From a virus, in the IMG/VR virus record IMGVR_UViG_3300020051_000113, positions 1 through 20,654 of that record: a stretch of 20,654 nt of DNA, one strand, 5' to 3'. Of this stretch, positions 3,265 to 19,815 are shown in pieces. The notes beneath the pieces were generated by a model. It did not search any database and was not told the DNA's origin. It was given only the letters and a program-made list of their open reading frames with translations. Positions within the stretch are counted from its first letter, which is position 1; every line of letters starts with the position of its first letter. The translations under genes and the position numbers were made by a program.

Positions 3265-3275
3265 AAAGGACTACA

Positions 3276-3452: not shown

Positions 3453-3461
3453 AATAAACAC

Positions 3462-3490
3462 TTGACAACAGGATATAGTTGTGTTATTAT
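3462..3490 (+). promoter_or_regulatory. sigma70-type promoter
   Basis: TTGACA (3462-3467), a 17-nt spacer and TATTAT (3485-3490). The predicted start near 3497 is only about 4 nt before ATG 3501, so the first gene would be leaderless or use a later start. Confidence 0.75.
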
Positions 3491-3500
3491 ATAAACAATT

Positions 3501-4210: not shown

Positions 4211-4215
4211 GTAAT

Positions 4216-4293
4216 ATGAAGATGGTAAAGTCGGCCAATAAGCGACACGTTGGTATTTGCAAGCCTGAAATTGCATACAAGGAGAACAAATGA
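4216..4293 (+). CDS. possible 25-aa peptide translationally coupled to DNA polymerase
   Basis: ATG 4216 opens a 25-codon frame, MKMVKSANKRHVGICKPEIA and five more residues, whose stop overlaps the DNA polymerase start as ATGA. AGGA at 4203-4206 lies 9 nt upstream. The peptide is basic and has no known match in my memory. It could be a real small gene or a leader whose translation helps polymerase start; it could also be chance. Confidence 0.35.
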   Translation: MKMVKSANKRHVGICKPEIAYKENK

Positions 4294-6953: not shown

Positions 6954-6979
6954 AAAAATTCTTGCACTTTCAATCAAAC
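6938..6979 (+). repeat. inverted repeat flanking the clamp promoter -35 box
   Basis: GTTTGATT (6938-6945) and AATCAAAC (6972-6979) are perfect 8-bp complements around a 26-nt centre that holds the polymerase stop codon and the TTGCAC -35 box. There is no T-tract after it, so it is not a standard terminator; it may be an operator-like site or chance. Confidence 0.4.
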
Positions 6980-6990
6980 CTAAATATAAT
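6962..6990 (+). promoter_or_regulatory. sigma70-type promoter for the sliding clamp / dpdA-like unit
   Basis: TTGCAC (6962-6967), 17-nt spacer, TATAAT (6985-6990). Predicted start near 6997 gives a 16-nt leader with GAGGAG at 7001-7006 before ATG 7013. Confidence 0.8.
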
Positions 6991-7012
6991 GTAAGTTACA
7001 GAGGAGAATTCA

Positions 7013-7750
7013 ATGAAAGACATCTTACAAGATATTGTTAGTCATACACAGAACTTAGGTTTTCTAACTACTGTGAAAGTGACTGGCGAAGAAGCAGGCA
7101 CATCGATGTTTTCAATGGCTGATGATAGATCAGTTATTATGGAAGCAGATACACATAACCCATATGCAGATATGATTGGCACATTTGGTATGCCACAATT
7201 AAACAAGTTGAAATACTTGATTGACGGTACTGAATATCAAAAGGACGCAAAGATTACTATTACAAACGCAGAACGTAATGGTGCAAATATTCCTGTAGGT
7301 ATTCACTTTGAAAATGCAGATGGTGATTTTAAAAACGACTATCGTTTTATGAATCAAGAAATTATTAATGAGAAAATGAAAACTGTAAAGTTTCGTGGTG
7401 TAAACTGGGACGTAGAAGTTGTTCCTACACTTGCAGGCGTACAGCGTTTTAATTTCCAAGCAGGGGCTAATCCAGAGCATCCAACATTCTTAGCAAAAAC
7501 TGAAGATGGTAACTTAAAGTTTATCTTTGGTGATGCAAGTACACACGGTGGCGAATTTATTTTTGCAACTGATGTAACTGGTACACTTGACAGAGGCTGG
7601 ACTTGGCCTGTAGCAAGTATTCTAGCAATCCTTAAGATTGCAGATGTTAACAATACTAAGATGAGCATTTCCAATGAAGGTGCAGTGCAAATTACACTAG
7701 ATAGCGGATTAGCAAAATACAAATATATTATTCCAGCACAGGCGGCTTAA
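7013..7750 (+). CDS. 45: DNA polymerase sliding clamp (gp45)
   Basis: A 245-residue protein (T4 gp45 has 228) with GAGGAG 6 nt before the ATG. The sequence begins with the FLTTVKVTG strand and continues through GMPQLNKLKYLIDGTEY, which matches the gp45 pattern 'm.dL.kL.yll..peY', then two clamp-fold halves joined near residues 120-135 and an end LDSGLAKYKYIIPAQ like the clamp's final strand. Gp45 is a homotrimeric ring that tethers gp43 to DNA and, in T4, also activates late transcription. The gene has its own strong promoter. Its stop is followed with no gap by the DpdA-like gene, so the two must be made from the same message. The loader genes 44 and 62 are not in the window. Confidence 0.92.
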   Translation: MKDILQDIVSHTQNLGFLTTVKVTGEEAGTSMFSMADDRSVIMEADTHNPYADMIGTFGMPQLNKLKYLIDGTEYQKDAKITITNAERNGANIPVGIHFENADGDFKNDYRFMNQEIINEKMKTVKFRGVNWDVEVVPTLAGVQRFNFQAGANPEHPTFLAKTEDGNLKFIFGDASTHGGEFIFATDVTGTLDRGWTWPVASILAILKIADVNNTKMSISNEGAVQITLDSGLAKYKYIIPAQAA

Positions 7751-9298
7751 ATGAAAGATCAAACAAACTTATCACCACTACAGAAAGATTACGCAGTGTT
7801 TCTTCCTGCGATTAGTTCTTTCTTTAGTACCTATGTTGCGAAACAAAGACTAGAAGAATTTGTTCCGCAAGATCGTATTCCTAAAGGATTCGATAGAGGT
7901 ATTGAAGGTATGAACTTTTTGAATGAAGAAGCAGGGTACTTTACATACAAGTATGGACTTTATAGTGCAGGTCACGCACAACTTGATTTGCAAAAAAGTC
8001 TAGTACAAGAAAGTATGATCCAAGATAGAAATCGAGACAAGACGATGATACTTGGAGACTCCGGCGGATATCAGATTGGTAAAGGTGTTATTAAGTTTGA
8101 TTGGTTAAATTTTGAAGGTGCTGAAGCAACTAAAGTAAGGCAACGTATCTTAGAATGGTTAGAACTAACTGCTGACTGGTCGATGATGCTTGATGTTCCA
8201 ACTTGGGCTTGTGATCATATTCACTCTCCTAAAACAGGACTAAAAACATTTGAAGACTGTCTTGATAAGACTCGTTACAATAACAAATACTTCCTTGATA
8301 ATCGTTTAGGTCAAACTAAGTTCTTAAATGTATTGCAGGGTTCAAACTGGGATACTGCTGAAAGGTGGTACGAAGGTGTAAAAGAATTCTCCGATCCTGC
8401 GGTATATGGTGATAAGGCTGCTGAAGGTTGGGCAATGGGTGGTGCTAATATGTGCAAGATGCCAATTACACTACGTAGATTGATTACAATGAAGTTTGAT
8501 GGTATGCTTGAAGGTAAAGACTGGATGCACTTCTTAGGTACAGCACAACTAGATTGGTCGTGTTACTTAACAAGTATTCAAAGAATTATTAGAGAGCAAA
8601 TTAATCCTAACTTTACTATTAGTTTTGATTGTGCATCTCCGTTTATTGCAACAGCACACGGACTTGTATATACAAATGCACAACATTCAAGCAAACGTTG
8701 GTCAGTGATTATGGACAAGGCTCCGGACAATAAAGCACTTGCTCAACGTCACGATATACAGTTTCCATTTGAAAGTGAAGTTGGAAGACGTATGACAATT
8801 GCTGACATCTGTCATTATGCTCCGGGTATGTTGAATAAGATCGGTAAAGAAGGCAAAACAAGTTGGGATAGTTTTGCGTATGCACTTATGATGTCGCACA
8901 ATGTAGAATGTCATATTAAAGCAGTACAACGTGCAAATACACTTATGGATATTGAGATTGCAAAAGCACAGCCTGATTGGAGACAATGGCGTAAAGTAAA
9001 AGAAGCAGATAAGAGTGATGAATACTCTGAATGGGTTCCACGTAACATCTTATACTTTGATAGATTTGTAAAAGAACTATTCGGGCAGCCAACTAAAGAG
9101 GCAGCGTTTGCAATGATTAAAGAAGCAGACAGTTTCCTAAAAGATCTTGAAGGTGCTAGACTGCGTGGTGGTGTAACTAACATTTCTGATAGTTTGTTTG
9201 TAGAAGTTGACGAGAACGGTGAAGAAGAAGTTCCGTGGACTGATGATAGAGAAGATACTGAACTTGATAAACTTGAGGAACAATTACAGGAGGCGTAA
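7751..9298 (+). CDS. dpdA: TGT-superfamily DNA transglycosylase, DpdA-like
   Basis: A 515-residue protein starting right after the clamp stop; AGGCGG inside the end of gene 45 (7740-7745) serves as ribosome site. TGT landmarks appear in order: LGDSGGYQIGKG with D103 (like the D102 general acid of Zymomonas TGT), MMLDVPTWACDH, NVLQGSNWD (TGT VQGS), WAMGGANMCK (the base-contacting GG loop), and SFDCASPFIATAHG with D293 as the nucleophile (TGT FDCVLPTR..RHG). The TGT zinc site seems changed: instead of CxCxxC only ICHYAP (C354, H355) is seen, though H383 in MSHNVE matches the usual histidine. The protein is longer than tRNA TGTs. DpdA enzymes exchange guanine in DNA for a 7-deazaguanine base; with folE, queE and a QueD-like gene nearby, DNA rather than tRNA is the likely substrate. 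The fold is well supported; substrate is inferred. Confidence 0.82.
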   Translation: MKDQTNLSPLQKDYAVFLPAISSFFSTYVAKQRLEEFVPQDRIPKGFDRGIEGMNFLNEEAGYFTYKYGLYSAGHAQLDLQKSLVQESMIQDRNRDKTMILGDSGGYQIGKGVIKFDWLNFEGAEATKVRQRILEWLELTADWSMMLDVPTWACDHIHSPKTGLKTFEDCLDKTRYNNKYFLDNRLGQTKFLNVLQGSNWDTAERWYEGVKEFSDPAVYGDKAAEGWAMGGANMCKMPITLRRLITMKFDGMLEGKDWMHFLGTAQLDWSCYLTSIQRIIREQINPNFTISFDCASPFIATAHGLVYTNAQHSSKRWSVIMDKAPDNKALAQRHDIQFPFESEVGRRMTIADICHYAPGMLNKIGKEGKTSWDSFAYALMMSHNVECHIKAVQRANTLMDIEIAKAQPDWRQWRKVKEADKSDEYSEWVPRNILYFDRFVKELFGQPTKEAAFAMIKEADSFLKDLEGARLRGGVTNISDSLFVEVDENGEEEVPWTDDREDTELDKLEEQLQEA

Positions 9299-9299
9299 T

Positions 9300-9479
9300 A
9301 TGTCCGACTATACAAAACGTTTACTTTGGTTAAAAGAATCACACAAATTCCTAAATACACAAGTAGACAAAATGGAAAAGACTGGTAATTTTAAAGACGA
9401 AGAATTAAGTGAAATGAAAAAGAAACGTCTTAAACTTAAAGATCAAATTGAAAGGATTGAAAAGGAACATACAGTATGA
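9300..9479 (+). CDS. DUF465/YdcH-like small coiled-coil protein
   Basis: A 59-residue protein. ATG 9300 is chosen because a perfect AGGAGG (9288-9293), inside the end of the dpdA-like gene, lies 6 nt upstream; the longer frame that opens earlier is unlikely. The protein is one long charged helix (LLWLKESHKFLNTQVDKMEK, then ELSEMKKKRLKLKDQIERIEKE). The 'L...h..Ld..i..mek....d.el..mKk.rL.LKDqI' pattern matches the YdcH/DUF465 family, found across proteobacteria and in marine phages, function unknown. Overlaps the next gene by 4 nt (ATGA). Confidence 0.72.
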   Translation: MSDYTKRLLWLKESHKFLNTQVDKMEKTGNFKDEELSEMKKKRLKLKDQIERIEKEHTV

Positions 9480-10006
9480 ACCGTGATTACGAAAATGGCA
9501 AAGCAGACAATGTTAGATTCTTTTCAGGCTTTGAAGTTGAAAAGACTCCTGCACATTTGAAACTTACATTATTTGTCACAGGCATTAACGATGTACAAAT
9601 TATTAGAGGACATTTAGATACTCACAAGCATATTTTCTTTGGTGCTAATCATAGTTTTGATCCTGCTACTGAAAACCATAGTGCAGATTATTATGAAGAA
9701 TGGGAGAAGATGATTCAACCATTTTTACAAGAAGGATATCTATGTAGTTTAGATATTCCAATTAATGCAGCAGAAATGTTTTTAGATGGACCATTAATTG
9801 AATACGAAAATTTTATTCCGCAACTACGTGTTCCAATTCCTTATATAAAACAATGGAACTACAACACAATGATTAAGATTGATGATAAAGATTTCCAAGC
9901 AACAAATCCAGGTGTATGGTGTCATAGATTGCACACACTAATGGATGAAGAAAGATTCACTAATTGGGAAGAATATAAAAACGATAAAATAGTGGATGAC
10001 AACTAG
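9476..10006 (+). CDS. uncharacterised protein in the deazaguanine block
   Basis: A 176-residue soluble protein whose ATG overlaps the previous stop as ATGA, with AAGGA just upstream. Possible functional residues are HLDTHKHIFFGANHSFDP (several His and an Asp), LDIPINAAEMFLDGP, and NPGVWCHRLHTLMD. I do not recognise the family with confidence, though I recall similar proteins in other marine T4-like phages. The His-rich stretch could hold a metal. It does not show a CxxxCxxC radical-SAM motif, PP-loop, or nucleotide-binding P-loop, so it is not an obvious missing QueC. Its position between the DpdA-like and QueD-like genes makes a role in the same pathway worth testing; that is inference only. 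Confidence 0.62.
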   Translation: MNRDYENGKADNVRFFSGFEVEKTPAHLKLTLFVTGINDVQIIRGHLDTHKHIFFGANHSFDPATENHSADYYEEWEKMIQPFLQEGYLCSLDIPINAAEMFLDGPLIEYENFIPQLRVPIPYIKQWNYNTMIKIDDKDFQATNPGVWCHRLHTLMDEERFTNWEEYKNDKIVDDN

Positions 10007-10024
10007 AACAAAAGGTAGTATACT

Positions 10025-10465
10025 ATGGGTATAACTGATACAATGATGAAAGAAGCAATGGCAGAAGACAATCATAGACGTATTATGTCTACAGCAAAAA
10101 GAATGATTTGGGTAACGTTCCGAAAGGAAGGTATCCACAAATATCCTGCGGCACTGGAAGATCCAGCACTTGCAACAGGTGATGAATATGATGTTTCGTT
10201 TTTGGGATATCCCCATAGACACATATTCCACTTTAAGGTCGGTATCACTGTAACACACAACGACAGAGATATTGAGTTCATTCAATTTAAACGTTGGTTA
10301 GAAAAACTGTATGAGGAGAAAACCCTTGAACTAGATTATAAAAGTTGTGAAATGATATGCGATGATCTATACGAACAGATTATTGCAAAACATCCAGGCC
10401 GTGAAGTCCATATTGACGTAAGTGAAGATGGAGAAAACGGTGCCCACATTGAGTATGCAAGATAG
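10025..10465 (+). CDS. divergent QueD/6-pyruvoyl-tetrahydropterin synthase-like (T-fold) protein
   Basis: A 146-residue protein with AAAGG at 10011-10015, 9 nt before the ATG. The layout from residue 55 follows QueD/PTPS: a strand and histidine pair (YPHRHIFHFKVGITV, with H64, H66, H69, like the HGHxY zinc strand), then DIEFIQFKRWLEKLY (like the GMVxDFxxLK step), LELDYKSCEMICDDLYEQI (like LDHxxLN and PTxENLA, E109 as the pterin-anchoring Glu) and VHIDVSEDGENGAHIEY (like VxVxETxxxxAxY, E134). The catalytic Cys of the first His region is not obvious, and about 50 N-terminal residues are extra. QueD makes 6-carboxytetrahydropterin from the FolE product. With folE and queE nearby this role is plausible; homology is remote and from reading only. 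Confidence 0.55.
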   Translation: MGITDTMMKEAMAEDNHRRIMSTAKRMIWVTFRKEGIHKYPAALEDPALATGDEYDVSFLGYPHRHIFHFKVGITVTHNDRDIEFIQFKRWLEKLYEEKTLELDYKSCEMICDDLYEQIIAKHPGREVHIDVSEDGENGAHIEYAR

Positions 10466-10479
10466 AAAAGGAGATTACA

Positions 10480-10680
10480 GTGTCTTATTTTGCAGACAAT
10501 CCCAAGATTGTCAAGGTGTTCAATGACCTTGATAAGTTCCGTGATTTTTGTCGTTTTGAATGGTTGCCATTCGATGAGAAAAATTTGTACAACAACTCTA
10601 GTAGAGAGTGGCGTGCATTTACCAAGCGGAACAATAACCACTATAAGAAGCGTGGTAGAAATTTTAACAAAAGGAAATAA
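10480..10680 (+). CDS. small phage protein with basic Arg/Asn-rich tail
   Basis: A 66-residue protein starting with GTG; AAAAGGAG (10466-10473) lies 6 nt upstream, which fixes the start. The first half, MSYFADNPKIVKVFNDLDKF and RDFCRFEWLPFDEKNLYNNS, resembles a short conserved phage family ('n..i..lFddL..FrdfC...g..F.E..LYn..s..w'). The last 20 residues (RNNNHYKKRGRNFNKRK region) are strongly basic, like RNA- or DNA-contacting tails. I know no function. Confidence 0.68.
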   Translation: MSYFADNPKIVKVFNDLDKFRDFCRFEWLPFDEKNLYNNSSREWRAFTKRNNNHYKKRGRNFNKRK

Positions 10681-10682
10681 CA

Positions 10683-11723
10683 ATGAACATTTGGTTAGTT
10701 GACTTAGAAGCAGTAGAAACACGTTACACAAAACAATGGAAAACTGAGTTTCCTAAAGTTCTAAAGTCTGCTGGCCACAATGTTAAAGTTATTAGCGGAG
10801 GGGATACGCCACAGGCAACTACACCTGGGGCGTTCCTCAACTTCGGCGGCACTAATGTTTACAAAAGCAATCAACAAGCACAGATTGCAGAAGCATTTTG
10901 TAATGGCGAAGTAAAAGACGGAGACTACTTCCTATACACAGATGCTTGGAATCCTACTGTAATACAATTAAAGTATATGGCAGAGTTACTAGGTGTTAAA
11001 ATAAAAATAGGTGGTATGTGGCACGCCGGTAGTTATGATCCTGAAGATTTTTTAGGTAGACTTATAGGCGATGCTCCGTGGGTTAGAAATGCAGAACGTA
11101 GTATGTATGATTGTTATGATCATAATTTTTATGCAAGTGACTTCCACATCGATATGTTCTTTAAGTCCTTTCCAGACTTAGATAAAAGCAAGGTTGTAAA
11201 GACAGGTTGGCCATTTGAATATATGGATAACACACTTACTCCTTATAAGCATATGGACAAAAAGGATACTGTTTTGTTTCCGCACAGACTTGCTCCGGAA
11301 AAACAATTGAACATATTTCGTGACTTAGCAGACACACTTACACAGTACAATTGGGTAGTTTGTCAAGAACATAACCTAAATAAGAATGAGTATCATAATC
11401 TATTAGGAGAGTCTAAACTAGTATTCAGTGCTAACTTACAAGAAACACTAGGTATAAGTTGGTATGAGGGTGCAGTAGTAGGTTCATTACCTATGGTTCC
11501 AGATAGATTAAGTTATAGTGAAATGGCAATTGATGACTTTAAATATCCAAGTGAATGGACTGATTCTTTCGAATCTTACAAATTACACAAGGATAAAGTA
11601 GTAGCCAAAGTTATTGATTATATGGAAAATTACAAAAACTATCTTCCAAGCCTAAATAAACAAGTAGCCAAACTAAATGGAGAATATTTTAGTTGCAAAG
11701 GTTTACTAGACGTGCTACATTAA
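10683..11723 (+). CDS. GT-B fold glycosyltransferase (GT4-like)
   Basis: A 346-residue protein starting 2 nt after the previous gene, with AAAGGA upstream of the ATG. The first half (IWLVDLEAVETRYTKQW, KSAGHNVKVISGG) looks like the N-terminal Rossmann half of a GT-B enzyme. The second half contains VLFPHRLAPEKQLNIFRDLA (the GT4 'GRL.peKg...li.A' donor-site strand) and SANLQETLGISWYEGAVVGSLPMVPD, an EX7E motif with E254 and E262 that binds the nucleotide-sugar. It therefore probably transfers a sugar from an NDP-sugar. T4-like phages use such enzymes to glycosylate modified DNA bases; its place between the QueD-like and folE genes makes that attractive here, but lipid or protein glycosylation cannot be excluded. 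Confidence 0.75.
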   Translation: MNIWLVDLEAVETRYTKQWKTEFPKVLKSAGHNVKVISGGDTPQATTPGAFLNFGGTNVYKSNQQAQIAEAFCNGEVKDGDYFLYTDAWNPTVIQLKYMAELLGVKIKIGGMWHAGSYDPEDFLGRLIGDAPWVRNAERSMYDCYDHNFYASDFHIDMFFKSFPDLDKSKVVKTGWPFEYMDNTLTPYKHMDKKDTVLFPHRLAPEKQLNIFRDLADTLTQYNWVVCQEHNLNKNEYHNLLGESKLVFSANLQETLGISWYEGAVVGSLPMVPDRLSYSEMAIDDFKYPSEWTDSFESYKLHKDKVVAKVIDYMENYKNYLPSLNKQVAKLNGEYFSCKGLLDVLH

Positions 11724-11762
11724 TAATATGCGCAATCCACTGCGTTAACATCGGAGATTAAA

Positions 11763-12452
11763 TTGAAAAAATACGAAGAAATAGCAAAACGCTTACAAGA
11801 CACAAAAACTAGATATTGGGCAGGCGATAATATCAGTGATTTTATTTTTGAAGGCGAAAAAGAACAACTTATCAAAGAAGCCACTGAAAAGTTTGAAGGT
11901 GTACTAGATGCACTTGTAATTGACAGACATAACGATCCAAACAGTATAGGAACTGGTAAACGTCTTGCAAAGATGTATATCAATGAACTAATGGCAGGAC
12001 GTTATGATCCTATGCCTGGTGCGACAGCATTTCCAAATGACAGTGCTTCACGTTATGAAGGTATGCTAGTAGTACGTTCAGAACTTACAAGTATGTGTTC
12101 ACATCATCATCAAATTGTAAGAGGCGTTGCATACATTGGCATTATTGCCGCAGACAAACTAATTGGATTGTCTAAGTATACACGTATTGCACAATGGTGT
12201 GCTGAACGTGGTACATTGCAAGAAGAACTTGCAAATGATATTACTCGTGAAATACAAAAAGCAACAGGTGCAGAACACTTAGGTGTGTATGTACAAGCAA
12301 CACACGGTTGCGTTGAAAACAGAGGTGTTAAAGCACATAGTTCACTTACACAAACTACCGTACTCAAAGGCGCATTCAAAGACGATGCGGCTACTAAGAA
12401 AGAGTTTATGGATAACATTAAATTACAGCAATCATATGCTTGTGATAGATAA
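11763..12452 (+). CDS. folE: GTP cyclohydrolase I (FolE)
   Basis: A 229-residue protein with a TTG start; GGAG at 11753-11756 is 6 nt upstream and no ATG occurs before the conserved core, so TTG is the best start. Family residues are clear: ELTSMCSHHHQIVRG with zinc ligands C112 and H115 (E. coli C110, H113), GLSKYTRIAQWCAER (the GLSKIARIV helix), and ATHGCVENRGVKAHSS with C183 (E. coli C181), the substrate-contacting Arg and the closing TVLKGAF. It converts GTP to 7,8-dihydroneopterin triphosphate, the first step for both folate and 7-deazaguanine. In this block the deazaguanine role is more likely. A short gene-free stretch of about 40 nt precedes it, with no promoter I can see. Confidence 0.93.
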   Translation: MKKYEEIAKRLQDTKTRYWAGDNISDFIFEGEKEQLIKEATEKFEGVLDALVIDRHNDPNSIGTGKRLAKMYINELMAGRYDPMPGATAFPNDSASRYEGMLVVRSELTSMCSHHHQIVRGVAYIGIIAADKLIGLSKYTRIAQWCAERGTLQEELANDITREIQKATGAEHLGVYVQATHGCVENRGVKAHSSLTQTTVLKGAFKDDAATKKEFMDNIKLQQSYACDR

Positions 12453-12461
12453 GGAGTAATT

Positions 12462-12683
12462 ATGCCAATACCAGAAAGAGTTTACGTTCCAGCAGCCAAA
12501 GATCCAGGCTTAGGACATTTTTATATTAGTTTAATTAAAAGTGTTGTAAGAATAGGAGCAGGTATTTCACTTGCACTAGGAGGTTATTATCTAGGTGCAA
12601 ATGACTGGGGCTTCTGGATTTTAATTGCAGGTGTTGCATTTGTTCTTGCAGAGATTCTTGGAATAGTTGAGGAGATTGTATAA
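12462..12683 (+). CDS. small two-helix membrane protein
   Basis: A 73-residue protein with AAGGAG (12451-12456) 5 nt before the ATG. A proline-containing polar N-terminus (MPIPERVYVPAAKDPGLGHF) is followed by two hydrophobic helices, about 22-44 (ending SLALGGYYLG) and 48-70 (WGFWILIAGVAFVLAEILGI). It is probably an inner-membrane hairpin. Family not recognised; its stop overlaps the next start. Confidence 0.7.
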   Translation: MPIPERVYVPAAKDPGLGHFYISLIKSVVRIGAGISLALGGYYLGANDWGFWILIAGVAFVLAEILGIVEEIV

Positions 12684-12913
12684 TGGACCTCAATAAAGAA
12701 AGAGTATATGCTGTGCAACCACAAAAGACACAAAACGATATTAAAATATTAACCCCTAACGAAGCACTTATGTACAATCTAAGAGGCATTAAACTTTTAG
12801 ATATGACAGAACGACATAATCTTACACCACACAAAGTTAGATTATCACGTGCTAATATGCCAAAGGAACCATTCTATGGAACAATATTCGGAAAAGAAAC
12901 AGAACCAGCGTAA
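12683..12913 (+). CDS. hypothetical protein
   Basis: A 76-residue protein; GAGGAG (12669-12674) is 8 nt upstream of the ATG, which overlaps the previous stop (TAATG). A segment ILTPNEALMYNLRGIKLLDM, then LTPHKVRLSRANM, looks like a small helical domain. It overlaps the next gene by 38 nt. No domain recognised. Confidence 0.62.
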   Translation: MDLNKERVYAVQPQKTQNDIKILTPNEALMYNLRGIKLLDMTERHNLTPHKVRLSRANMPKEPFYGTIFGKETEPA

Positions 12914-13073
12914 AGCGGCTATCGAGAAGGTTCTTAAAAATAAGAAACTTCCTGAAGATATGAGAATTATTTGGATGAGACATCTTAATAATCTCAGTGT
13001 TAACGAAGATGAATATAACGAGAAAGTAAAAAATATCTATGCAAACTTACGACCCTGGACAACCATTGCGTGA
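12876..13073 (+). CDS. small hypothetical helical protein
   Basis: A 65-residue protein beginning MEQYSEKKQNQRKAAIEKVL. ATG 12876 is preferred to the ATG at 12849 because AAGGAA (12863-12868) sits 7 nt before it. It is highly charged and helical (KNKKLPEDMRIIWMRHLNNL, EDEYNEKVKNIYANL). It overlaps the previous gene by 38 nt and the next by 35 nt, unusually long overlaps even here. Function unknown. Confidence 0.6.
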   Translation: MEQYSEKKQNQRKAAIEKVLKNKKLPEDMRIIWMRHLNNLSVNEDEYNEKVKNIYANLRPWTTIA

Positions 13074-13464
13074 TGACCTAATGGTGCAAGAGCAGATAGA
13101 TGGCTCTTGGCAACATATGGTCGGTGTAATTTGTTTAAACCAAACAAATAGAAAACAGGTTAAACGTGTACTTCCTGTGCTGTTTAACTTATGTCCTACA
13201 CCTATGCATTACCTAAATAGTTTACCAGAAACTATAAAAGAAATAATCAAACCTTTAGGAATGGTTAATATACGTGAACATCGTATTCGTAGAATGTCAA
13301 AAGATTACTTGACTTGGGACGGAAATGATGCTACTATGTTATATGGAATTGGAAAATATGGTTCTGATAGTTATGAGATATTTTTCAAGGATAATTACAG
13401 CGTACAACCAACTGATGGTGAGCTGAATAGATATTTGAACGAAGAGGTTTTTAATGTTTCTTAA
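13039..13464 (+). CDS. MBD4-like HhH-GPD DNA glycosylase
   Basis: A 141-residue protein that follows the C-terminal glycosylase domain of MBD4 along almost its whole length. SWQHMVGVICLNQTNRKQV matches 'pWkLLIATIFLNRTSGKmA'; LPVLFNLCPTPMHYL and IKEIIKPLGMVNIREHRIRR match 'PVLWkFLekyPS...' and 'dvsELLKPLGLYDLRAktI'. The helix-hairpin-helix is LYGIGKYGSDSYEIF (G103-G108), and the catalytic aspartate is D126 in QPTDGELNRY, matching MBD4 HPEDHKLNKY. MBD4 removes T or U opposite G, especially at deaminated 5-methylcytosine. No EndoIII-type Fe-S cysteines are seen. ATG 13039 is kept, though ATG 13081 is possible. Class well supported; natural substrate unknown. Confidence 0.82.
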   Translation: MQTYDPGQPLRDDLMVQEQIDGSWQHMVGVICLNQTNRKQVKRVLPVLFNLCPTPMHYLNSLPETIKEIIKPLGMVNIREHRIRRMSKDYLTWDGNDATMLYGIGKYGSDSYEIFFKDNYSVQPTDGELNRYLNEEVFNVS

Positions 13465-13951
13465 GTTACTAGATAAACTAGGACGTAAGCGTACAATATA
13501 TGATAGAGATGGTACTATTCCATATCTTGATCGCTATTATATATTTTTAAAAGACAGAAAGAACTTTCCGTTTAACATTACACTGCATAAGGTAATGGTA
13601 AGCGATGAAGATGTATTACACGACCATCCGTGGTCATATGCTACACTTATTTTGAAAGGTGGGTACTATGAACACATTCCTGTATACAATGATACTACAG
13701 GCGGAGTAGTTGGTGCAACTAGAGTATGGCGTGGTCCTGGACATTTTAGATTTAGAAAAGCAGATGACCTACACTGGTTAGAACTTGCAAAAGACAAAGA
13801 CGGAAACGAAATTCCTTGTTGGAGTTTGTTCTATATGGGCAAAAAAGAAAAGGAGTGGGGCTTTTTACCTTTTAATGGAAAAGGTGAACTTGAAGAACGT
13901 GGGTACCGTTGGGTACACAATGAACAATACTTGGAAGGACGTAATGGTTAA
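13454..13951 (+). CDS. cupin-fold protein
   Basis: A 165-residue protein; GAAGAGG (13441-13447) is 6 nt before the ATG, overlapping the glycosylase gene. The cupin metal-site pattern is visible as VLHDHPWSYATLILKGGYYEH, with a later strand RRGPGHFRFRK-like segment (WRGPGHFRFRKADDLHWLEL) providing a further histidine. The end, WSLFYMGKKEKEWGFLPFNG, is typical of a cupin family with this same 'HDHPW..yttliLkGgY.E' and 'PG..rfR.a.dlHwleL' layout that I recall from bacteria and phages. Probably binds a metal and a small polar ligand; enzymatic role unknown. Confidence 0.78.
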   Translation: MFLKLLDKLGRKRTIYDRDGTIPYLDRYYIFLKDRKNFPFNITLHKVMVSDEDVLHDHPWSYATLILKGGYYEHIPVYNDTTGGVVGATRVWRGPGHFRFRKADDLHWLELAKDKDGNEIPCWSLFYMGKKEKEWGFLPFNGKGELEERGYRWVHNEQYLEGRNG

Positions 13952-14510
13952 AAAGAAATATTATAGTTGGGCTGACGTTGAAAATATGTGCGTTAGCATT
14001 GTAAATAAGATGTATGCAGATAATTGGACACCTGATTATATTGTAGGCATTACTAGAGGCGGAAACGTCCCTGCTACTATACTAAGTAATATGACAGGGA
14101 TACGTTGTGAAGCACTTAAAGTAAGTTTACGTGATGATGATTGTGATAGTGAAAGCAATGCTTGGATGTCAGAAGATGCATACGGTTACGATGATGAAGG
14201 TTCTTATGCTCCTGAAATGGGAGAGTTTAAAAATAAACCACTTGGTAAAAACATTCTAATCGTAGATGATATTAATGATACAGGTGCAACATTTAATTGG
14301 ATCAGAGATGATTGGCAGAAAAATTGTTTACCTAATTCACCTCTATGGGAGCAGGTGTGGGCAAACAATGTTCGCTTTGCAACGCTAACAGAGAATATGG
14401 CAAGTGAGTTCGGACTAGTTAATTACTGTTGTGATATAGTTAACAAAGCCGAAGAAGATGTTTGGTTAGTTTACCCCTGGGAAAATGTTGGAGAATATAA
14501 ATGCGAGTAA
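13944..14510 (+). CDS. type I phosphoribosyltransferase
   Basis: A 188-residue protein. ATG 13944 is chosen because GGAAGGA (13933-13939) immediately precedes it and the product MVKKKYYSWADVENMCVSIV starts the fold sensibly; an earlier start would overlap the cupin gene by much more. DYIVGITRGGNVPATILSNM is the PRTase N-terminal strand-loop, and ILIVDDINDTGAT (residues 104-116, D108/D109) is the PRPP-binding signature. Such enzymes join a purine or pyrimidine base to PRPP. An acidic insert (DDDCDSESNAWMSEDAYGYD) separates the two and may form the flexible hood. Base specificity (guanine/hypoxanthine/xanthine or other) cannot be read. See the finding on guanine recycling. Confidence 0.85.
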   Translation: MVKKKYYSWADVENMCVSIVNKMYADNWTPDYIVGITRGGNVPATILSNMTGIRCEALKVSLRDDDCDSESNAWMSEDAYGYDDEGSYAPEMGEFKNKPLGKNILIVDDINDTGATFNWIRDDWQKNCLPNSPLWEQVWANNVRFATLTENMASEFGLVNYCCDIVNKAEEDVWLVYPWENVGEYKCE

Positions 14511-14734
14511 CTACAGATACATTTGTTGAAATTGAAAACGTACAGACTGGCAAAAAAGAAAATGCTAGTATTGGTATGTTTAAAGAAGAAAATATGATGG
14601 AAGTTTTTATTGTTGGCAATAGACTAGTCCTTAAATATAAAAAGTCAGCAGGTATGTATATTGGTTCTATTTACGGTATGGAGTTTCAAAGTAAAGGACC
14701 TGATATGGCAAATGTAAAAGAGTGGAGAGCATAA
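14501..14734 (+). CDS. small hypothetical protein
   Basis: A 77-residue protein with GGAG (14490-14493) 7 nt before the ATG, overlapping the previous gene by 10 nt. Beta-rich: VTTDTFVEIENVQTGKKENA, MEVFIVGNRLVLKYKKSAG, YIGSIYGMEFQSKGP. It resembles a small barrel-like domain. Family not recognised. Confidence 0.62.
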   Translation: MRVTTDTFVEIENVQTGKKENASIGMFKEENMMEVFIVGNRLVLKYKKSAGMYIGSIYGMEFQSKGPDMANVKEWRA

Positions 14735-15118
14735 ATGATAGATACACTTGAAAAGGCGCAACAAGATGGTAGAGCACCTTGGACAGATGTAGAAATTGAT
14801 ACTAGAGAATTTGTAGTATACAATGACATTTACCCTGTCACAGAAGGACATACTCTAGTTGTACCAAAACAAAATACAGAAGAAAACATTTTAAAATGTT
14901 TTAACTTTGCACTTACAATGGGTAACGATAATATTAAGTCAGAAAAAAACAACATAACAGGTTATAACGTGGGAATAAATATGGGACAAAGTGCAGGACA
15001 AACTTGTTACTATCCACACGTTCATTTAATTTTCCGTCGAGATGGCGATATGGAAGATCCGCGAGGAGGCGTTAGAGGCGTCATTCCATCAAAACAAAAC
15101 TACAAGGAAGGACTATGA
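14735..15118 (+). CDS. HIT-family protein
   Basis: A 127-residue protein, the usual HIT length, with GGAG (14724-14727) 7 nt before the ATG. The first half (REFVVYNDIYPVTEGHTLVVPKQNTEENIL) is the HIT 'd..Pv..GH.Lvip K.H' segment. GYNVGINMGQSAGQTCYYPHVHLIFRR is the C-terminal motif region. The usual HxHxH triad reads Y93-P94-H95-V96-H97: the first histidine is Tyr, while the middle histidine (the nucleophile in HIT hydrolases) and the last are kept. HIT proteins hydrolyse or transfer nucleotides (Ap4A, adenosine phosphoramidates). The insert DMEDPRGGVRGVIPSKQNY after it is family-like in phages. Activity is plausible but altered. Confidence 0.85.
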   Translation: MIDTLEKAQQDGRAPWTDVEIDTREFVVYNDIYPVTEGHTLVVPKQNTEENILKCFNFALTMGNDNIKSEKNNITGYNVGINMGQSAGQTCYYPHVHLIFRRDGDMEDPRGGVRGVIPSKQNYKEGL

Positions 15119-15324
15119 CATTGAAACAAACATTAATCAATGCTGCAAGGAAACACGCAGAAGCAGAAATCGAATTGCATAAGGCCAACATCGAAGTTTA
15201 TATGCAACAAGTAGTTGGTATTGGCGAACACAGTGACATCATTGAAACTATCCAAAAAGAGTTAGATAAGATGGCACAAGCGAACGATAGACTAGAAATG
15301 CTGGACAAGCATTTTGGTGAATAA
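15115..15324 (+). CDS. conserved phage helical protein
   Basis: A 69-residue protein overlapping the HIT gene stop (ATGA), with AAGGAAGGA (15104-15112) just upstream. Helical throughout: TLINAARKHAEAEIELHKAN, then VGIGEHSDIIETIQKELDKM. The pattern 'A.kHAe..i..hkanvevY......vGIGEHsDi.eti..ElDkia' is one I recall from T4-like cyanophages; function unknown. Confidence 0.72.
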   Translation: MTLKQTLINAARKHAEAEIELHKANIEVYMQQVVGIGEHSDIIETIQKELDKMAQANDRLEMLDKHFGE

Positions 15325-15529
15325 GACATATCAAATAAAATTAGAGGAAGATCCGGAAAATAAAGATCTGGTTCTTCCTATCCCCACTGAATTACTAAAC
15401 CAAATGGGCTGGGATATTGGAGACGATTTGGTTTGGACAGACAACTTTGATGGTACGTTTTCACTTACTAAAGAGGTTGACAAATCCATTAAGAAAGCGT
15501 ATAATAAACACAATGACGATAGCAACTGA
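15317..15529 (+). CDS. AbrB/MazE-like swapped-hairpin DNA-binding protein
   Basis: About 70 residues from GTG 15317 (a TTG at 15314 is the alternative). VLPIPTELLNQMGWDIGDDLVWTDNFDGTFSLTK is the SpoVT/AbrB or MazE pattern (a beta hairpin, 'lP.el...lGw..GD.l.w.d..dGtf.l'). Such proteins bind DNA as dimers, as transcription regulators or antitoxins; no toxin gene is adjacent. A consensus promoter for queE lies in its last codons, so its 3' end doubles as a regulatory region. It overlaps both neighbours. Confidence 0.72.
   Translation: MNKTYQIKLEEDPENKDLVLPIPTELLNQMGWDIGDDLVWTDNFDGTFSLTKEVDKSIKKAYNKHNDDSN
15477..15505 (+). promoter_or_regulatory. consensus sigma70 promoter in front of queE
   Basis: TTGACA (15477-15482), 17-nt spacer, TATAAT (15500-15505): a perfect match at both boxes, located inside the AbrB-like gene. 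Predicted start is near 15512, one base before ATG 15513. Confidence 0.75.
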
Positions 15530-16427
15530 TAAAAAGTATTACTACAGCGAAATCTTTCACAGTATTCAAGGTGAAGGACACTATACTGGTGTGCCTACTG
15601 CTTGGATACGTTTCTTCTTATGCAATTTACAGTGTAATGGCTTTGGACAGATAGATCCTACAAATCCTGATACATATGATTTGCCGTTTGAAAAGTTTGA
15701 TACAAGCACAGTAGAACGTGTAGAAGACTTGCCTGTATGGGATAAAGGTTGTGATAGCAGTTACACTTGGAGTAAGAAGTTTAAACATCTAATGGGGCAA
15801 AAGACTGCTGTCGAACTAGCACAACAAATTATTGATACACTTAAAACAGATAGTAATCCAGAAGGTAAGTTTTTACATCCTGTTACAGGACAAAGACAAC
15901 ACTTTTGCGTTACAGGTGGCGAACCACTTATGAAACACGCACAAGATGCCTTCATTGGTATTATGAGAGAATTTAAACGTATGGGCAATATGCCTGCTAG
16001 TGTAACATTTGAAACTAATGGTACACAAACGCTAAAACAAGAATTTATTGACTACTGGACTAAAGAAGCAGATGATGATATCGAACTGTTCTTTAGTGTA
16101 TCTCCTAAGTTATGGAGTGTAGCAGGCGAAACTGCTAAGAAAGCAATTAAGCCTGAAGCAGTAGCACAATACAGAACATTGTCTGATAAAGGACAATTAA
16201 AGTTTGTTGTAGGTTCCGAACAACAACAGTGGGATGAGATGGAAGATGCTATCGCACAATTTAAAGCACAAGGGGTTGATTATCCTGTTTGGGTAATGCC
16301 AGTTGGTGCTAGAGAAGAAGAACAAACAGCAACAGCCGGAGCAGTTGCTAAGATGGCATTCGAACGTGGATATAATGTAGCCGCAAGGGTACACGTATAC
16401 TTGTTTGGTAATGCTATCGGAACATAG
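15513..16427 (+). CDS. queE: 7-carboxy-7-deazaguanine synthase (QueE), radical SAM
   Basis: A 304-residue protein from ATG 15513. An in-frame ATG at 15417 would put a run of unrelated residues ahead of the conserved YYSEIFHSIQGEGHYTGVPT start, and overlaps the AbrB-like gene more. The QueE signature 'SiQGEG...G.ptaWiRf..CNL.C' is clear; the radical-SAM cysteines are C37 and C41, then the third in KGCDSSYTW (C80), with a 38-residue stretch between the second and third. VTGGEPLM is the SAM-binding GGEP. The canonical QueE spacing is compact, so the insert is notable. It converts 6-carboxytetrahydropterin to CDG using SAM and an Fe-S cluster. It should use the FolE and QueD-like products. Confidence 0.9.
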   Translation: MTIATDKKYYYSEIFHSIQGEGHYTGVPTAWIRFFLCNLQCNGFGQIDPTNPDTYDLPFEKFDTSTVERVEDLPVWDKGCDSSYTWSKKFKHLMGQKTAVELAQQIIDTLKTDSNPEGKFLHPVTGQRQHFCVTGGEPLMKHAQDAFIGIMREFKRMGNMPASVTFETNGTQTLKQEFIDYWTKEADDDIELFFSVSPKLWSVAGETAKKAIKPEAVAQYRTLSDKGQLKFVVGSEQQQWDEMEDAIAQFKAQGVDYPVWVMPVGAREEEQTATAGAVAKMAFERGYNVAARVHVYLFGNAIGT

Positions 16428-16435
16428 GAAAAGTT

Positions 16436-16780
16436 ATGGACTTTATAAAAAACTTATTTGGTAAAGGTAAAGCAGAAAAGAAGCCTGGACTAAGTGATAA
16501 AGAAGTTGCTACAAAGAAAAAAGAACCTTGGGTGGGCGTGTTGAATACACACGTTAACAAAGAAAATGTTCGAAATGGCTTCTTTGAACTTGACTGGAAC
16601 CAGTACTTTATAGTACAATTAAAACAACAAGGGTATGGAGTTGAAAATGATCCAGACGAAGAAGTAGTTGATCGTTGGTTTAGAGAACTTTGTGCAAATG
16701 TAGTAGTCGATGGTGACTACGGAGGACCGTTGGAAACTGGGTCTTTAGATATCAGTTCCGTGAAAAGAGAAAATGAGTAA
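16436..16780 (+). CDS. conserved T4-like marine phage protein
   Basis: A 114-residue protein with AGGAA upstream. A lysine-rich N-terminus (MDFIKNLFGKGKAEKKPG) precedes a conserved core, EPWVGVLNTHVNKENVRNGF, then FELDWNQYFIVQLKQQGYG and EEVVDRWFRELCANVV. I recall this core in many cyanophage genomes near replication genes. It has no known function in my memory; the position just before RNase H suggests replication or nucleotide metabolism context only. Overlaps the next start by 8 nt. Confidence 0.72.
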   Translation: MDFIKNLFGKGKAEKKPGLSDKEVATKKKEPWVGVLNTHVNKENVRNGFFELDWNQYFIVQLKQQGYGVENDPDEEVVDRWFRELCANVVVDGDYGGPLETGSLDISSVKRENE

Positions 16781-17765
16781 AATGACGCACATCATAGTTG
16801 ATACAGCAAACACGTTCTTTCGTGCAAGACACGTTATAAATGGCGATGCAGATATTAAGTTGGGTATGGCTTTCCATATTACATTGAATAGTATTAAGAA
16901 GGCTTGGCAAGACTTCAATGGTACACACGTTATCTTTTGTCTTGAAGGACGTAGTTGGCGTAAAGATCATTATGAGCCATACAAGCGTAATAGACAGGTT
17001 GCACGTGATGCATTAACAGAACAACAGCAAGAAGAAGATAAAGTATTCTGGGAAGCATTTGATACATTTAAAGATTTTGTTTCTGACAAAACTAACTGTA
17101 CTGTTCTGCAACACAATGAACTAGAAGCAGATGATCTTATTGCAGGTTGGGTACAAGCACATCCAGATAGTGATCACGTTATTATTAGCACTGATACAGA
17201 TTTCCAGCAGTTAATTGCTCCGAACTGTCGACTGTATAATGGTGTACAAGAAGTAACTACAACTACAGAAGGTTTCTTTGATAAGAAAGGTGAACTAGTA
17301 ATTGATAAGAAAACAAAACTACCTAAGGTAGTAGATCCAGAATGGATGTTGTTTGAAAAATGTATGCGTGGTGACACAAGTGATAATGTGTTTAGTGCAT
17401 ATCCAGGTGTACGTAAGAAAGGCACTAAGAACAAAGTTGGTTTGCTAGAGGCGTTTGCTGATAGACAAACTAAAGGCTTTAATTGGAATAACTTGATGCT
17501 ACAACGTTGGGTTGATCATAACGGTGAAGAACATCGTGTACTAGAAGATTATGAACGTAACAAAACTATTATTGATCTTACTGCACAACCTAGTGAAGTA
17601 AAAGAAAAGATAGAAAGCACAATCAGTACAGCAATTGAAGCAGATAAAAATATAAGTCAAGTTGGTGTAAGACTTATGAAGTTCTGTCATTTGTATGATT
17701 TGAAGAAAATATCAGATCAAGCACAAGCATATGCAGAACCGTTAAATGCGAGGTATAAAATATGA
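16773..17765 (+). CDS. rnh: RNase H / 5'-3' exonuclease (T4 Rnh-like, FEN family)
   Basis: A 330-residue protein (T4 RNase H has 305). FEN/5'-exonuclease acidic sites appear in order: IIVDTANTFFRARH with D10, ELEADDLIAGW (E116-D121), IISTDTDFQQLI (D141, D143) and MRGDTSDNVFSAYPGVRKKG (D201, D204, then the helix-hairpin region). Residues SWRKDHYEPYKRNR match the 'wR....YK.nR' segment near the arch. It removes Okazaki RNA primers and flaps during lagging-strand synthesis. No signs of truncation. Start ATG 16773 has weak ribosome-site support (GAAAAGAG); ATG 16782 is an in-frame alternative. Confidence 0.92.
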   Translation: MSKMTHIIVDTANTFFRARHVINGDADIKLGMAFHITLNSIKKAWQDFNGTHVIFCLEGRSWRKDHYEPYKRNRQVARDALTEQQQEEDKVFWEAFDTFKDFVSDKTNCTVLQHNELEADDLIAGWVQAHPDSDHVIISTDTDFQQLIAPNCRLYNGVQEVTTTTEGFFDKKGELVIDKKTKLPKVVDPEWMLFEKCMRGDTSDNVFSAYPGVRKKGTKNKVGLLEAFADRQTKGFNWNNLMLQRWVDHNGEEHRVLEDYERNKTIIDLTAQPSEVKEKIESTISTAIEADKNISQVGVRLMKFCHLYDLKKISDQAQAYAEPLNARYKI

Positions 17766-18238
17766 CAGTAATTCAAGCAAAGCCTATCATTGCTAACAAA
17801 TTTTGGATTGTAGAACAAAACGGTGAACGTATTGCTACATTACGTAAGAACGAAGAAAACTTTTTTGTCCTTAGTAATGAAAGCACTGTTACACGTTTTA
17901 AAGATAAAAAAGCATTACAAGATCAGTTCGGCAGCGACTTTTTTATTGCTAAAGTAGTTAGAGATAGCAAAGATAGTTTACCTTCAGAAGTACACGGTTT
18001 TAGCACAAGTAGTAAGCCACATAATGCTATGTACGATATTAAAAACAAACTGCCTTTGTTTACTAAAAGCAAAGATAGTAAAAGTTTATACTGTGCAGGT
18101 TACTATGTAATTAGATTTGACAAAGGCTGGGTAAAGTCTTTTTGTCCTAAGTTAATTACACTACAGCGTTATGAGTATAAAGGTCCATTTAAAACAGATA
18201 TAGAAATGAAGCAGGTATTAAGTCGTGTCAACAAATGA
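17762..18238 (+). CDS. conserved phage hypothetical protein
   Basis: A 158-residue protein overlapping the RNase H stop (ATGA), with an AGG-containing stretch upstream. It begins FWIVEQNGERIATLRKNEEN and later has SSKPHNAMYDIKNKLPLFTK and YCAGYYVIRFDKGWVKSFCP, with two Cys near a beta-rich end, closing LQRYEYKGPFKTDIEM. I recall the 'P.N.lydvk.klPlftKs.kSkS.ycAGyYvi.f..gW..s.CPK..tL.ry...GPfk' layout from T4-like marine phages. Function unknown; position suggests co-expression with RNase H. Confidence 0.72.
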   Translation: MTVIQAKPIIANKFWIVEQNGERIATLRKNEENFFVLSNESTVTRFKDKKALQDQFGSDFFIAKVVRDSKDSLPSEVHGFSTSSKPHNAMYDIKNKLPLFTKSKDSKSLYCAGYYVIRFDKGWVKSFCPKLITLQRYEYKGPFKTDIEMKQVLSRVNK

Positions 18239-18473
18239 ACTTCCAACAACTATGCCTAGTATACAAAGATTGCTACAACGCATATCAAGTGCAGAAAAAA
18301 GCAATCAAAAAGAAATAAGAATTACTATACAAGAAGCACGTGAATTAACAACTGATTTAGCATTACTTACAAGCAGATTAGGTACTACAGTGCAAGAAGT
18401 TCATACTATGTTACGTAAAATTAAACAAGATAGCGAGGAACTTGAAGTTAAATTTGATGGCGGCGACTTCTAA
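18225..18473 (+). CDS. conserved phage helical protein
   Basis: An 82-residue protein from a GTG start at 18225 (AGG at 18213-18215, 9 nt upstream), overlapping the previous gene by 14 nt. Helical: MPSIQRLLQRISSAEKSNQK, IRITIQEARELTTDLALLTSR, VQEVHTMLRKIKQDSEELEV, ending in an acidic FDGGDF. Resembles a small coiled-coil phage protein I recall next to this cluster in T4-like phages. Function unknown. Confidence 0.68.
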   Translation: MSTNELPTTMPSIQRLLQRISSAEKSNQKEIRITIQEARELTTDLALLTSRLGTTVQEVHTMLRKIKQDSEELEVKFDGGDF

Positions 18474-18478
18474 TTTTT

Positions 18479-18486
18479 GATAAATA
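18479..18486 (+). promoter_or_regulatory. late-promoter-like motif GATAAATA
   Basis: Same octamer as at 1553, one base from TATAAATA, in the short gap before ATG 18517 (31 nt upstream). Confidence 0.45.
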
Positions 18487-18518
18487 TATACGTAGTTAAT
18501 TAAGGAAATTACGTATAT
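18486..18518 (+). promoter_or_regulatory. hairpin presenting the ribosome site of the next gene
   Basis: ATATACGTA (18486-18494) and TACGTATAT (18510-18518) are perfect 9-bp complements. The 15-nt loop contains AAGGA (18502-18506), and the right arm includes the first two bases of the start codon at 18517. Confidence 0.55.
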
Positions 18519-18798: not shown

Positions 18799-18799
18799 T

Positions 18800-19195: not shown

Positions 19196-19228
19196 AATTT
19201 ATAATAGTAGCAGTTAATAAATAATATT

Positions 19229-19501: not shown

Positions 19502-19505
19502 AAAT

Positions 19506-19805: not shown

Positions 19806-19815
19806 GAGACCAATT

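Follow-up and report, generated by a model that had tools for sequence, protein, structure and literature searches.

The virus record IMGVR_UViG_3300020051_000113 (20,654 bases, taken whole; the window hereafter), from a marine phage, carries a conserved gene cassette for a 7-deazaguanine pathway, in which a divergent DpdA-type transglycosylase is accompanied by a T-fold protein, here called TfQ, and by a glycosyltransferase (GT). All the genes of interest are on the + strand. The record most probably represents only part of a larger phage; no tRNA was detected in it, and a search of 50,697 phage records gave no near match. IMG/VR contig G001 (62,975 bases), from which locus L001 was taken, shares 99.97% identity with window positions 2889-20654 (17,766 bases) and reaches approximately 42 kb past the right end. 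We took it to represent the same phage, and both sequences are fragments. The gene order is family-B DNA polymerase, probable clamp, dpdA, component X, TfQ, GT, folE, HhH-GPD protein, 'cysteine dioxygenase' phrog protein, phosphoribosyltransferase, HIT protein, queE and exonuclease, with small genes interspersed. The genes assigned to the pathway are as follows.

7751..9298, + strand: divergent DpdA of the tRNA-guanine transglycosylase (TGT) superfamily, presumably acting on DNA (fold, catalytic residues, no CxCxxC)
9476..10006, + strand: component X, a co-conserved protein (no Pfam match; homologue of ACP17 gp122)
10025..10465 (start may be 10085), + strand: TfQ, a T-fold QueD paralogue without the QueD catalytic residues (phrog_17812, unknown function, E 1.1e-34)
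10683..11723, + strand: GT-B/GT4-like glycosyltransferase (conserved motif residues, PF00534 in relatives, linkage to deazaguanine genes)
11763..12452, + strand: FolE, GTP cyclohydrolase I (PF01227, E 1.1e-36)
13785..14510, + strand: phosphoribosyltransferase (PF00156, E 5.5e-10)
15513..16427 (open reading frame, ORF, opens at 15417), + strand: QueE, 7-carboxy-7-deazaguanine (CDG) synthase (phrog_2076, E 1.1e-55)

The phosphoribosyltransferase probably starts downstream of 13785, since that position falls within the preceding gene, and QueE probably starts at ATG 15513, which fits its relatives better than 15417. A preliminary description of this DNA had listed a TGT-superfamily gene, FolE, QueE and a QueD-like T-fold gene in one direction, and all four were found in place on the + strand. 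Its names for FolE and QueE agree with the profile matches above, and the transglycosylase, FolE and QueE do form one conserved block beside the DNA polymerase. It overlooked the GT, the phosphoribosyltransferase and component X.

At E 0.1, the 7751 protein matched nothing in Pfam or PHROGs. Among PDB sequences it found no TGT, the best match (E 0.0094) being an unrelated nascent chain, and its family profile found none. A Pfam search at E 10 with 10 rows of alignment A1 returned only two weak, unrelated matches and no TGT; a Magnetospirillum relative alone reached PF01702, at E 0.026, below the cut-off. An AlphaFold2 model built from 32 window and IMG/VR sequences (pLDDT 82, pTM 0.84) was compared with the PDB using Foldseek, and the nine best matches were all TGTs (E 1.7e-8 to 7.7e-5). 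The model aligned with T. maritima TGT (2ash) at a VIA Z of 20.2 (rmsd 4.7, 306 aligned, 16% identity) and with Z. mobilis TGT (1p0e) at 19.6. Residues D103, S104, G105, G106, Q108, D148, G197, G231 and D293 were invariant in 37/37 representatives, and Q196 was conserved in 36/37. From their roles in TGT, we take D103 and D293 to be the catalytic Asp pair, and D148 and Q196 to be among the base-recognition residues. Both the superfamily and the two aspartates had been named in the preliminary description, and the structure-based search and the residue conservation uphold them.

The CxCxxC zinc motif of Escherichia coli TGT was not found in the 7751 protein and, rather than grouping with tRNA TGTs only, its profile lies nearest to DpdA2. 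Compared by hhalign, the window DpdA profile gave E 2.7e-5 to DpdA2 of phages nt-1, ACP17 and X1 (213 columns, probability 74%), E 0.0018 to E. coli TGT (10 columns) and E 0.1 to the DpdA of phage 9g, the last no better than the controls, which were 15 unrelated proteins or profiles, all at E 0.051 or worse. ACP17 alone gave E 2.5e-7, and a shallow profile was weak against single enzymes (nt-1 DpdA2, E 0.0042; X1, E 0.02). Membership of the DpdA2 subfamily was rejected, as phrog_10773 had no match to the DpdA of the window, Paride or Phosso; the relation is a distant one only. The 7751 protein therefore represents a DpdA-like enzyme with a sequence family of its own. On the modelled fold, the conserved aspartates and the missing zinc motif it is a divergent DpdA, and DNA would be its substrate. 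The window-family profile had no match at E<=1 in Campylobacter phage CP220, which presumably encodes a DpdA3, as reportedly described by Cui et al. 2023.

Relatives of the 7751 protein occurred in 13 records of the phage collection, comprising 11 PA5oct-like Pseudomonas phages (~40% identity), Vibrio phage 2.275.O and Sinorhizobium phage Phosso. In IMG/VR, 434 of 441 candidate stretches encoded a relative, and 80 of the 434 were kept. For dpdA-seeded loci with >9 kb downstream (29 of 80), GT, TfQ and folE were present in 29/29, queE in 28/29 and the phosphoribosyltransferase in 23/29; a further dpdA-seeded set (25 of 69 loci) contained GT, TfQ and queE in 25/25, and folE and the phosphoribosyltransferase in 18/25 each. 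When 80 IMG/VR loci were seeded with the GT instead, the sampled DNA contained dpdA in 72, TfQ in 78, the phosphoribosyltransferase in 70, folE in 63 and queE in 49, and wherever >4 kb upstream and >7 kb downstream were available, dpdA, TfQ, component X, folE, queE and the phosphoribosyltransferase were all present (28/28 loci). Component X, which contains a stretch like LKIDDxxFxxTNPGVW, was found throughout these well-sampled loci (28/28, 29/29 and 25/25), and matches ACP17 gp122, the gene preceding the DpdA2 of that phage (E 3e-20). The GT profile matched 16/16 IMG/VR contigs, with the match truncated at the contig end in G012 and weak and partial in G016. Many loci with ~67% GT identity have folE relocated behind the HIT gene.

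Among named phages, the GT lies in the deazaguanine block of five groups, and these use two DpdA families. The gene order is dpdA-GT-TfQ-phosphoribosyltransferase-queE in Paride, with FolE and QueD ~54 kb off; TfQ-GT-folE-queE in Phosso, with dpdA ~170 kb distant; QueD-folE-X-DpdA2-GT-TfQ-queE in ACP17; folE-GT-DpdA2-TfQ-queE in X1; and queE-phosphoribosyltransferase-QueD-folE-(second GT4-like gene)-DpdA2-TfQ-GT in BUCT-ZZ01. From these orders it is apparent that GT and TfQ remain paired even where the insertion enzyme is of another family. The GT matched 19 phage records, and all six that were opened (one or two per group) encode QueE and FolE. By comparison, the window QueE matched 203/50,697 phage records in a search of lower sensitivity. 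The window phosphoribosyltransferase is homologous to those adjoining queE in Synechococcus phage BUCT-ZZ01 (E 7.6e-14) and Paride. QueE has the phage-type C-x3-C and, past an insertion, a third Cys that nt-1 QueE has as well. On plasmids, the window QueE matched 25 records, with no lead among the five matches listed.

The GT itself was classified from its motifs. R202, K207 and E262 were conserved in 36/36 relatives and E254 in 34/36 (Asp in two), giving an R...EK motif and an EX7E motif that are presumably the signature of a GT-B retaining (GT4-like) enzyme. PF00534 matched over the cut-off in relatives from X1 (E 8e-12) and, by a narrow margin, BUCT-ZZ01 (E 5.5e-6). By these sequence criteria, the 10683 protein is a predicted GT-B-type, GT4-like glycosyltransferase.

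Further GT matches came from PhiXhv-12, PhiXhv-15, PhiXhv-16 and Ep032. PhiXhv-15, initially considered as a case of the GT outside deazaguanine phages (no such gene is annotated within 14 kb), was dropped: the distant GT relative is one gene from an 'aminotransferase' that is Gat-QueC (PF06508, E 4.4e-49), and a PIG-L deacetylase is adjacent. The Ep032 record is unannotated. FolE and QueE matches lie elsewhere in the genomes of PhiXhv-15 and Ep032, the QueE matches having one in-frame TAG each. No window-type DpdA was seen in the 28.7 kb examined. One block of Xanthomonas phage PhiXhv-15 (L254:7322-15749) combines Gat-QueC, the PIG-L deacetylase, the distant GT, a GNAT protein and a GFO/IDH/MocA oxidoreductase, and resembles a further deazaguanine pathway with sugar or acyl decoration. 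Sugar-editing genes lie near the GT in two lineages (an NAD epimerase in Paride, the PIG-L deacetylase in PhiXhv-15), and such neighbours fit a sugar on the base.

TfQ is predicted to adopt a T-fold (pLDDT 95.3). The best Foldseek match of the model was E. coli QueD (TM 0.70, 18% identity). The VIA Z score was 11.8 for a P. horikoshii homologue, and those of 10.9 for dihydroneopterin aldolase and 10.8 for QueD amount to a tie; dihydroneopterin aldolase and urate oxidase were no more than 1 to 1.5 below the top row, and QueD was not singled out. The T-fold is secure, and QueD is named as the nearest member because of the Foldseek match and the aligned His residues. H38, H64, H66, S107-C108-E109 and E134 were invariant in 57/57 sequences, and H38, H64 and H66, which align with the QueD ligands, likely form a Zn site. 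L60 (Leu in 57/57) occupies the position of the catalytic Cys of phage QueD (CxxxHG(H/Y)), the Asp-His segment of QueD is missing from the TfQ alignment, and PF01242 gave no match at any TfQ site.

A separate QueD was identified by PF01242 in 6/6 TfQ-positive named phages tested (Paride, Phosso, ACP17, X1, RHph_I1_18 and phiST) and in 5/16 IMG/VR relatives. The missing catalytic residues, together with co-occurrence with a real QueD, rule out TfQ as the QueD of the cassette. The preliminary description was therefore right about the fold of this gene and is not supported in giving it the role of the pathway's QueD; in such phages, the fold alone is insufficient to annotate 'QueD-like' genes as QueD. 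PF01242 detected no QueD in the known 63 kb of the window's phage, and the enzyme would therefore come from unsampled phage sequence or from the host. In Vibrio phage Bakedbeans (L241:14263-15414) and Chryseobacterium phage MA9V-3 (L245:7395-8276), TfQ forms the C-terminal part of longer proteins. Downstream of TfQ in three other loci (L242:8426-9298, L243:8692-9549 and L265:3464-4297) are ~280-aa proteins with a D-N-S-(A/G)-F-E stretch. Those of L242 and L243 had no Pfam match, other DpdA families were not found in the phages or contigs carrying the three proteins and, judged by eye, a further DpdA type is possible.

QueC was found neither in the window, as the preliminary description had stated, nor in the incomplete 62,975-base contig G001, which favours the CDG-like base that had been proposed there as one of two options. 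In a comparison of 15 named phages, chosen by hand and not a random sample, full-length QueC was present in 4/4 pathway phages without TfQ (nt-1, 2.275.O, 9g and CP220), all of which are also without the GT. It was present in 0/11 TfQ-positive records (Paride, Phosso, ACP17, X1, RHph_I1_18, phiST, Bakedbeans, Ahp1, D479, BUCT-ZZ01 and MA9V-3), nine of which gave no match, X1 a partial match below the cut-off and D479 a partial match over it. In 2.275.O, a window-type DpdA occurs alongside QueC and a gene annotated as preQ0 reductase, and TfQ and GT are absent. No QueC was detected in 14/16 IMG/VR relatives, and G005 and G012 had short matches in PP-loop ORFs (213 and 210 aa). From the distributions of QueC and TfQ, TfQ marks phages with a pathway that seemingly ends at CDG. 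The partial matches of G005, G012, D479 and X1, inspected by eye, all fall in PP-loop proteins, and we do not claim that these relatives are without every QueC-like step. The QueC-like PP-loop ATPases at G012:C1:93677-94306 and G005:C1:18252-18890 contain SGGLDS and C-terminal Cys residues, as read by eye. With respect to DNA carrying CDG (dCDG), FolE, QueE and DpdA are present in the window, and QueD and QueC are not in the known 63 kb, an incomplete sequence.

The GT and TfQ are also found in bacteria. A TfQ scan of one genome per species (84,980 species) yielded 15 loci. Six of them (L256-L261), all carrying dpdA, TfQ and GT, are metagenome-assembled contigs and probably binned phages. GT, TfQ and DpdA lie consecutively, with QueD after them, in four Magnetospirillum loci (three assemblies) and one Rhodospirillaceae metagenome-assembled genome (L262-L264, L266 and L267), the GT of the latter being cut by the contig end. 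The isolate among the three assemblies is M. aberrantis SpK, in which the cluster lies on a 424-kb contig. Here, the four-gene cluster is at L263:6853-10908, GT, TfQ and DpdA adjoin or overlap by a few bases, their identities to the window proteins are 40%, 54% and 33%, respectively, and QueD matches PF01242 at E 1e-22. A phage-type integrase (PF00589) is encoded ~3 kb downstream of this cluster. L265, L268 (3,975 bases) and two Streptomyces copies carry TfQ without this GT in the sampled stretch. In Streptomyces sp. NEAU-Y11 (L269:7962-9627; copy in L270), a distant TfQ adjoins QueD and FolE, perhaps as part of a 7-deazapurine metabolite cluster. As an example of tubercidin-like decarboxylation, these two loci were judged uninformative, because QueE and phosphoribosyltransferase profiles had no match in 16 kb and the published tubercidin cluster has a UbiD-family decarboxylase.

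Modification of the phage DNA with a deazaguanine, as the preliminary description had proposed, is very likely, and a branch of the pathway at CDG is likely. The travel of the GT with deazaguanine genes in unrelated phages and some bacteria suggests a sugar-bearing base, and a glycosylated product seems to us slightly on the probable side of even. Our reading of the whole is a CDG-level DNA-modification cassette, in which the base is processed by TfQ and then glycosylated, and we hold it with modest confidence. FolE, a QueD from elsewhere (phage or host) and QueE would make CDG from GTP, seemingly with no QueC step. TfQ would handle CDG in place of QueC, either binding or delivering it, or removing or altering its carboxylate. 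The divergent DpdA would swap guanine in phage DNA for the TfQ-handled base, and the GT would attach a sugar to this base after insertion or, alternatively, while it is still free. The likely use would be escape from host restriction. The phosphoribosyltransferase may recycle the guanine displaced by DpdA; alternatively, it could be a CDG phosphoribosyltransferase, because CDG and phosphoribosyl pyrophosphate are the substrates of TubE in tubercidin synthesis (PMC6112128). The route from GTP to CDG by FolE, QueD and QueE is established chemistry (PMC6112128).

We also speculate, as an idea that falls just short of probable, that this is a widespread and, to our knowledge, undescribed glycosylated 7-deazaguanine hypermodification with a mobile GT-TfQ-DpdA core. 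The core would be joined in phages to FolE, QueD and QueE, the same core with QueD in Magnetospirillum would mark DNA (possibly for self/non-self), and TfQ would be a new CDG-processing enzyme replacing QueC. The bacterial GT-TfQ-DpdA-QueD cluster is possibly a mobile DNA-marking island.

A number of observations weigh against a glycosylated base made without QueC. G005 and G012, which are window-type relatives, and D479 encode divergent QueC-like PP-loop proteins. The window GT has no significant Pfam match itself and a weak PHROG match (E 0.014), and its family profile matches three PDB glycosyltransferases at E 0.13-0.58 only. The GT could have an acceptor other than DNA: the one obvious acceptor on CDG is the carboxylate, where a glycosyl ester would be unusual, and if TfQ decarboxylates CDG the acceptor of the sugar becomes less clear. 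The parts are separable: 2.275.O has a window-type DpdA and QueC but neither TfQ nor GT, and six named phages have TfQ without the GT (RHph_I1_18, phiST, Bakedbeans, Ahp1, D479 and MA9V-3). The folE gene (18/25 in one set) and the phosphoribosyltransferase gene (23/29 and 18/25) are not always near dpdA, and the IMG/VR loci are the window's nearest relatives, not independent samples, some being one contig twice.

The rival that survives best is plain deazaguanine modification, with dCDG, or dPreQ0 or dADG made with a host QueC, as the product, and with the GT as a mere neighbour serving, for example, virion or cell-surface glycans. DpdA, FolE and QueE together with QueD are enough for dCDG, and 2.275.O has a window-type DpdA without this GT; even so, GT and TfQ are kept together in five named phage groups, in the window group and in Magnetospirillum despite changes in gene order and DpdA type. 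GT clusters in jumbo cyanophages are thought to alter surface glycans (PMC7824862), and a UDP-glucose dehydrogenase of the same phage lies just right of the window; against such a role, 28/28 well-sampled GT-seeded loci carry the module and 6/6 opened GT records encode QueE and FolE. We consider this explanation unlikely.

Less likely again is that TfQ is a CDG decarboxylase and the base is 7-deazaguanine (DDG), with the GT making a C- or N-glycoside or acting on a later product. It would account for a protein that keeps the putative Zn His residues and a conserved Glu without the QueD residues, and that occurs where full-length QueC does not. Cui et al. 2023 reportedly predicted a CDG decarboxylase, DpdL, for phages, and TfQ might be that enzyme. 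The tubercidin cluster, which is obliged to lose the CDG carboxylate, has the UbiD-family decarboxylase TubF for this step (PMC6112128), which argues against decarboxylation by TfQ. Finally, it is very improbable that the cassette raises the host queuosine/preQ0 pool for tRNA modification and leaves DNA untouched, a role compatible with the tRNA TGT fold of the DpdA-like protein and one that Hutinet et al. raise for pathway phages without DpdA (PMC6884629), given a protein with no TGT zinc motif and with DpdA2 as its nearest profile, a gene among replication genes, and no QueC in the known phage sequence.

Phage deazaguanine modification is already known, and the form bearing GT and TfQ is a new variant of it. 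Cui et al. 2023 are said to have reported dCDG and dDG, and further small C7 groups. Hutinet et al. 2019 established dG+ in 9g, showed the modification and the need for DpdA for 9g/CAjan, with the DpdA requirement for base insertion shown using phage CAjan, described phage deazaguanines with small C7 groups (cyano, amido, aminomethyl and that of archaeosine), and suggested that Bipper, a phage without QueC only, could carry CDG (PMC6884629). Like the window, 9g has FolE, QueE and a DpdA, with dpdA beside clamp and DNA polymerase genes, but in reversed order; unlike the window, its annotation includes a QueD, QueC is matched over its full length, TfQ and GT are absent, and its DpdA is not matched by the window profile (hhalign, within the controls). 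In the DpdA2 systems (nt-1, Acidovorax ACP17, Xanthomonas X1 and Synechococcus BUCT-ZZ01), the TGT-superfamily enzyme is distantly related to that of the window. ACP17, X1 and BUCT-ZZ01 resemble the window in having GT, TfQ, FolE and QueE without full-length QueC, whereas nt-1 has QueC and is without TfQ or GT. Paride shares with the window the DpdA family (40.5%), GT (46%), TfQ (57%), QueE and the phosphoribosyltransferase in one block.

PA5oct was already listed with a 'deazaguanine synthesis/incorporation system' by Iyer et al. 2021 (PMC7824862), the accessible part of which does not mention a linked GT or TfQ. The accessible literature on the Paride-type phages Paride and Callisto contained no deazaguanine or sugar-modification data. 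A search of titles and the starts of abstracts, which did not cover Cui et al. 2023 or the 2024 MMBR review, returned no GT tied to phage deazaguanine, and we do not claim absence from print. On CDG decarboxylases, too, it listed nothing relevant. T4-type glucosylation of 5-hydroxymethylcytosine and glycine ligation to 5-carboxymethylcytosine (PMC12783734) likewise alter a base and then have the handle decorated by a transferase or ligase. The window would differ from both in having a guanine-derived base, put in by base exchange, and the T4 glucosyltransferase families are absent from the Pfam matches of the GT.

The remaining annotated features are landmarks and accessory genes.

4290..6953, + strand: family B DNA polymerase, upstream landmark (PF00136, E 1.2e-33; phrog_262, E 1e-199)
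7013..7750, + strand: probable sliding clamp immediately 5' of dpdA, so named only for its location and length
13039..13464, + strand: HhH-GPD DNA glycosylase-like protein, accessory (PF00730, E 2.6e-6, over the cut-off)
13454..13951, + strand: phrog protein labelled 'cysteine dioxygenase' (cupin-like by label), accessory (phrog_4786, E 1.8e-33; no Pfam match)
14735..15118, + strand: HIT-domain protein, accessory (PF01230, E 3.4e-8)
16773..17765, + strand: 5'-3' exonuclease, downstream landmark (PF02739, E 2.4e-19)

The putative clamp matches phrog_12062 (unknown function, E 2.7e-34) and nothing in Pfam, and has homologues in L081 and L082. The HhH-GPD gene, inside the cassette, is absent from part of the relatives. 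The product of window positions 36-815 has an NT5C-type deoxynucleotidase domain (PF06941, E 1.5e-7), and its C-terminal tail is basic. The UDP-glucose dehydrogenase gene is at G001:40987-42171 (L253:987-2171; phrog_9148, E 5.7e-98), on the opposite strand, and its product could serve surface glycans or act as a supplier of UDP-GlcA.

Our findings single out the GT and TfQ as enzyme families for assay, and the glycosylated reading is testable at once because isolates exist (Phosso, Paride and Magnetospirillum aberrantis). If it is true, a sugar on deazaguanine would join the deazaguanine and glycosylated-base strategies, and might block more nucleases. In bacteria, the cluster prompts one to ask whether the chromosome bears such a mark and whether a restriction activity matches it.

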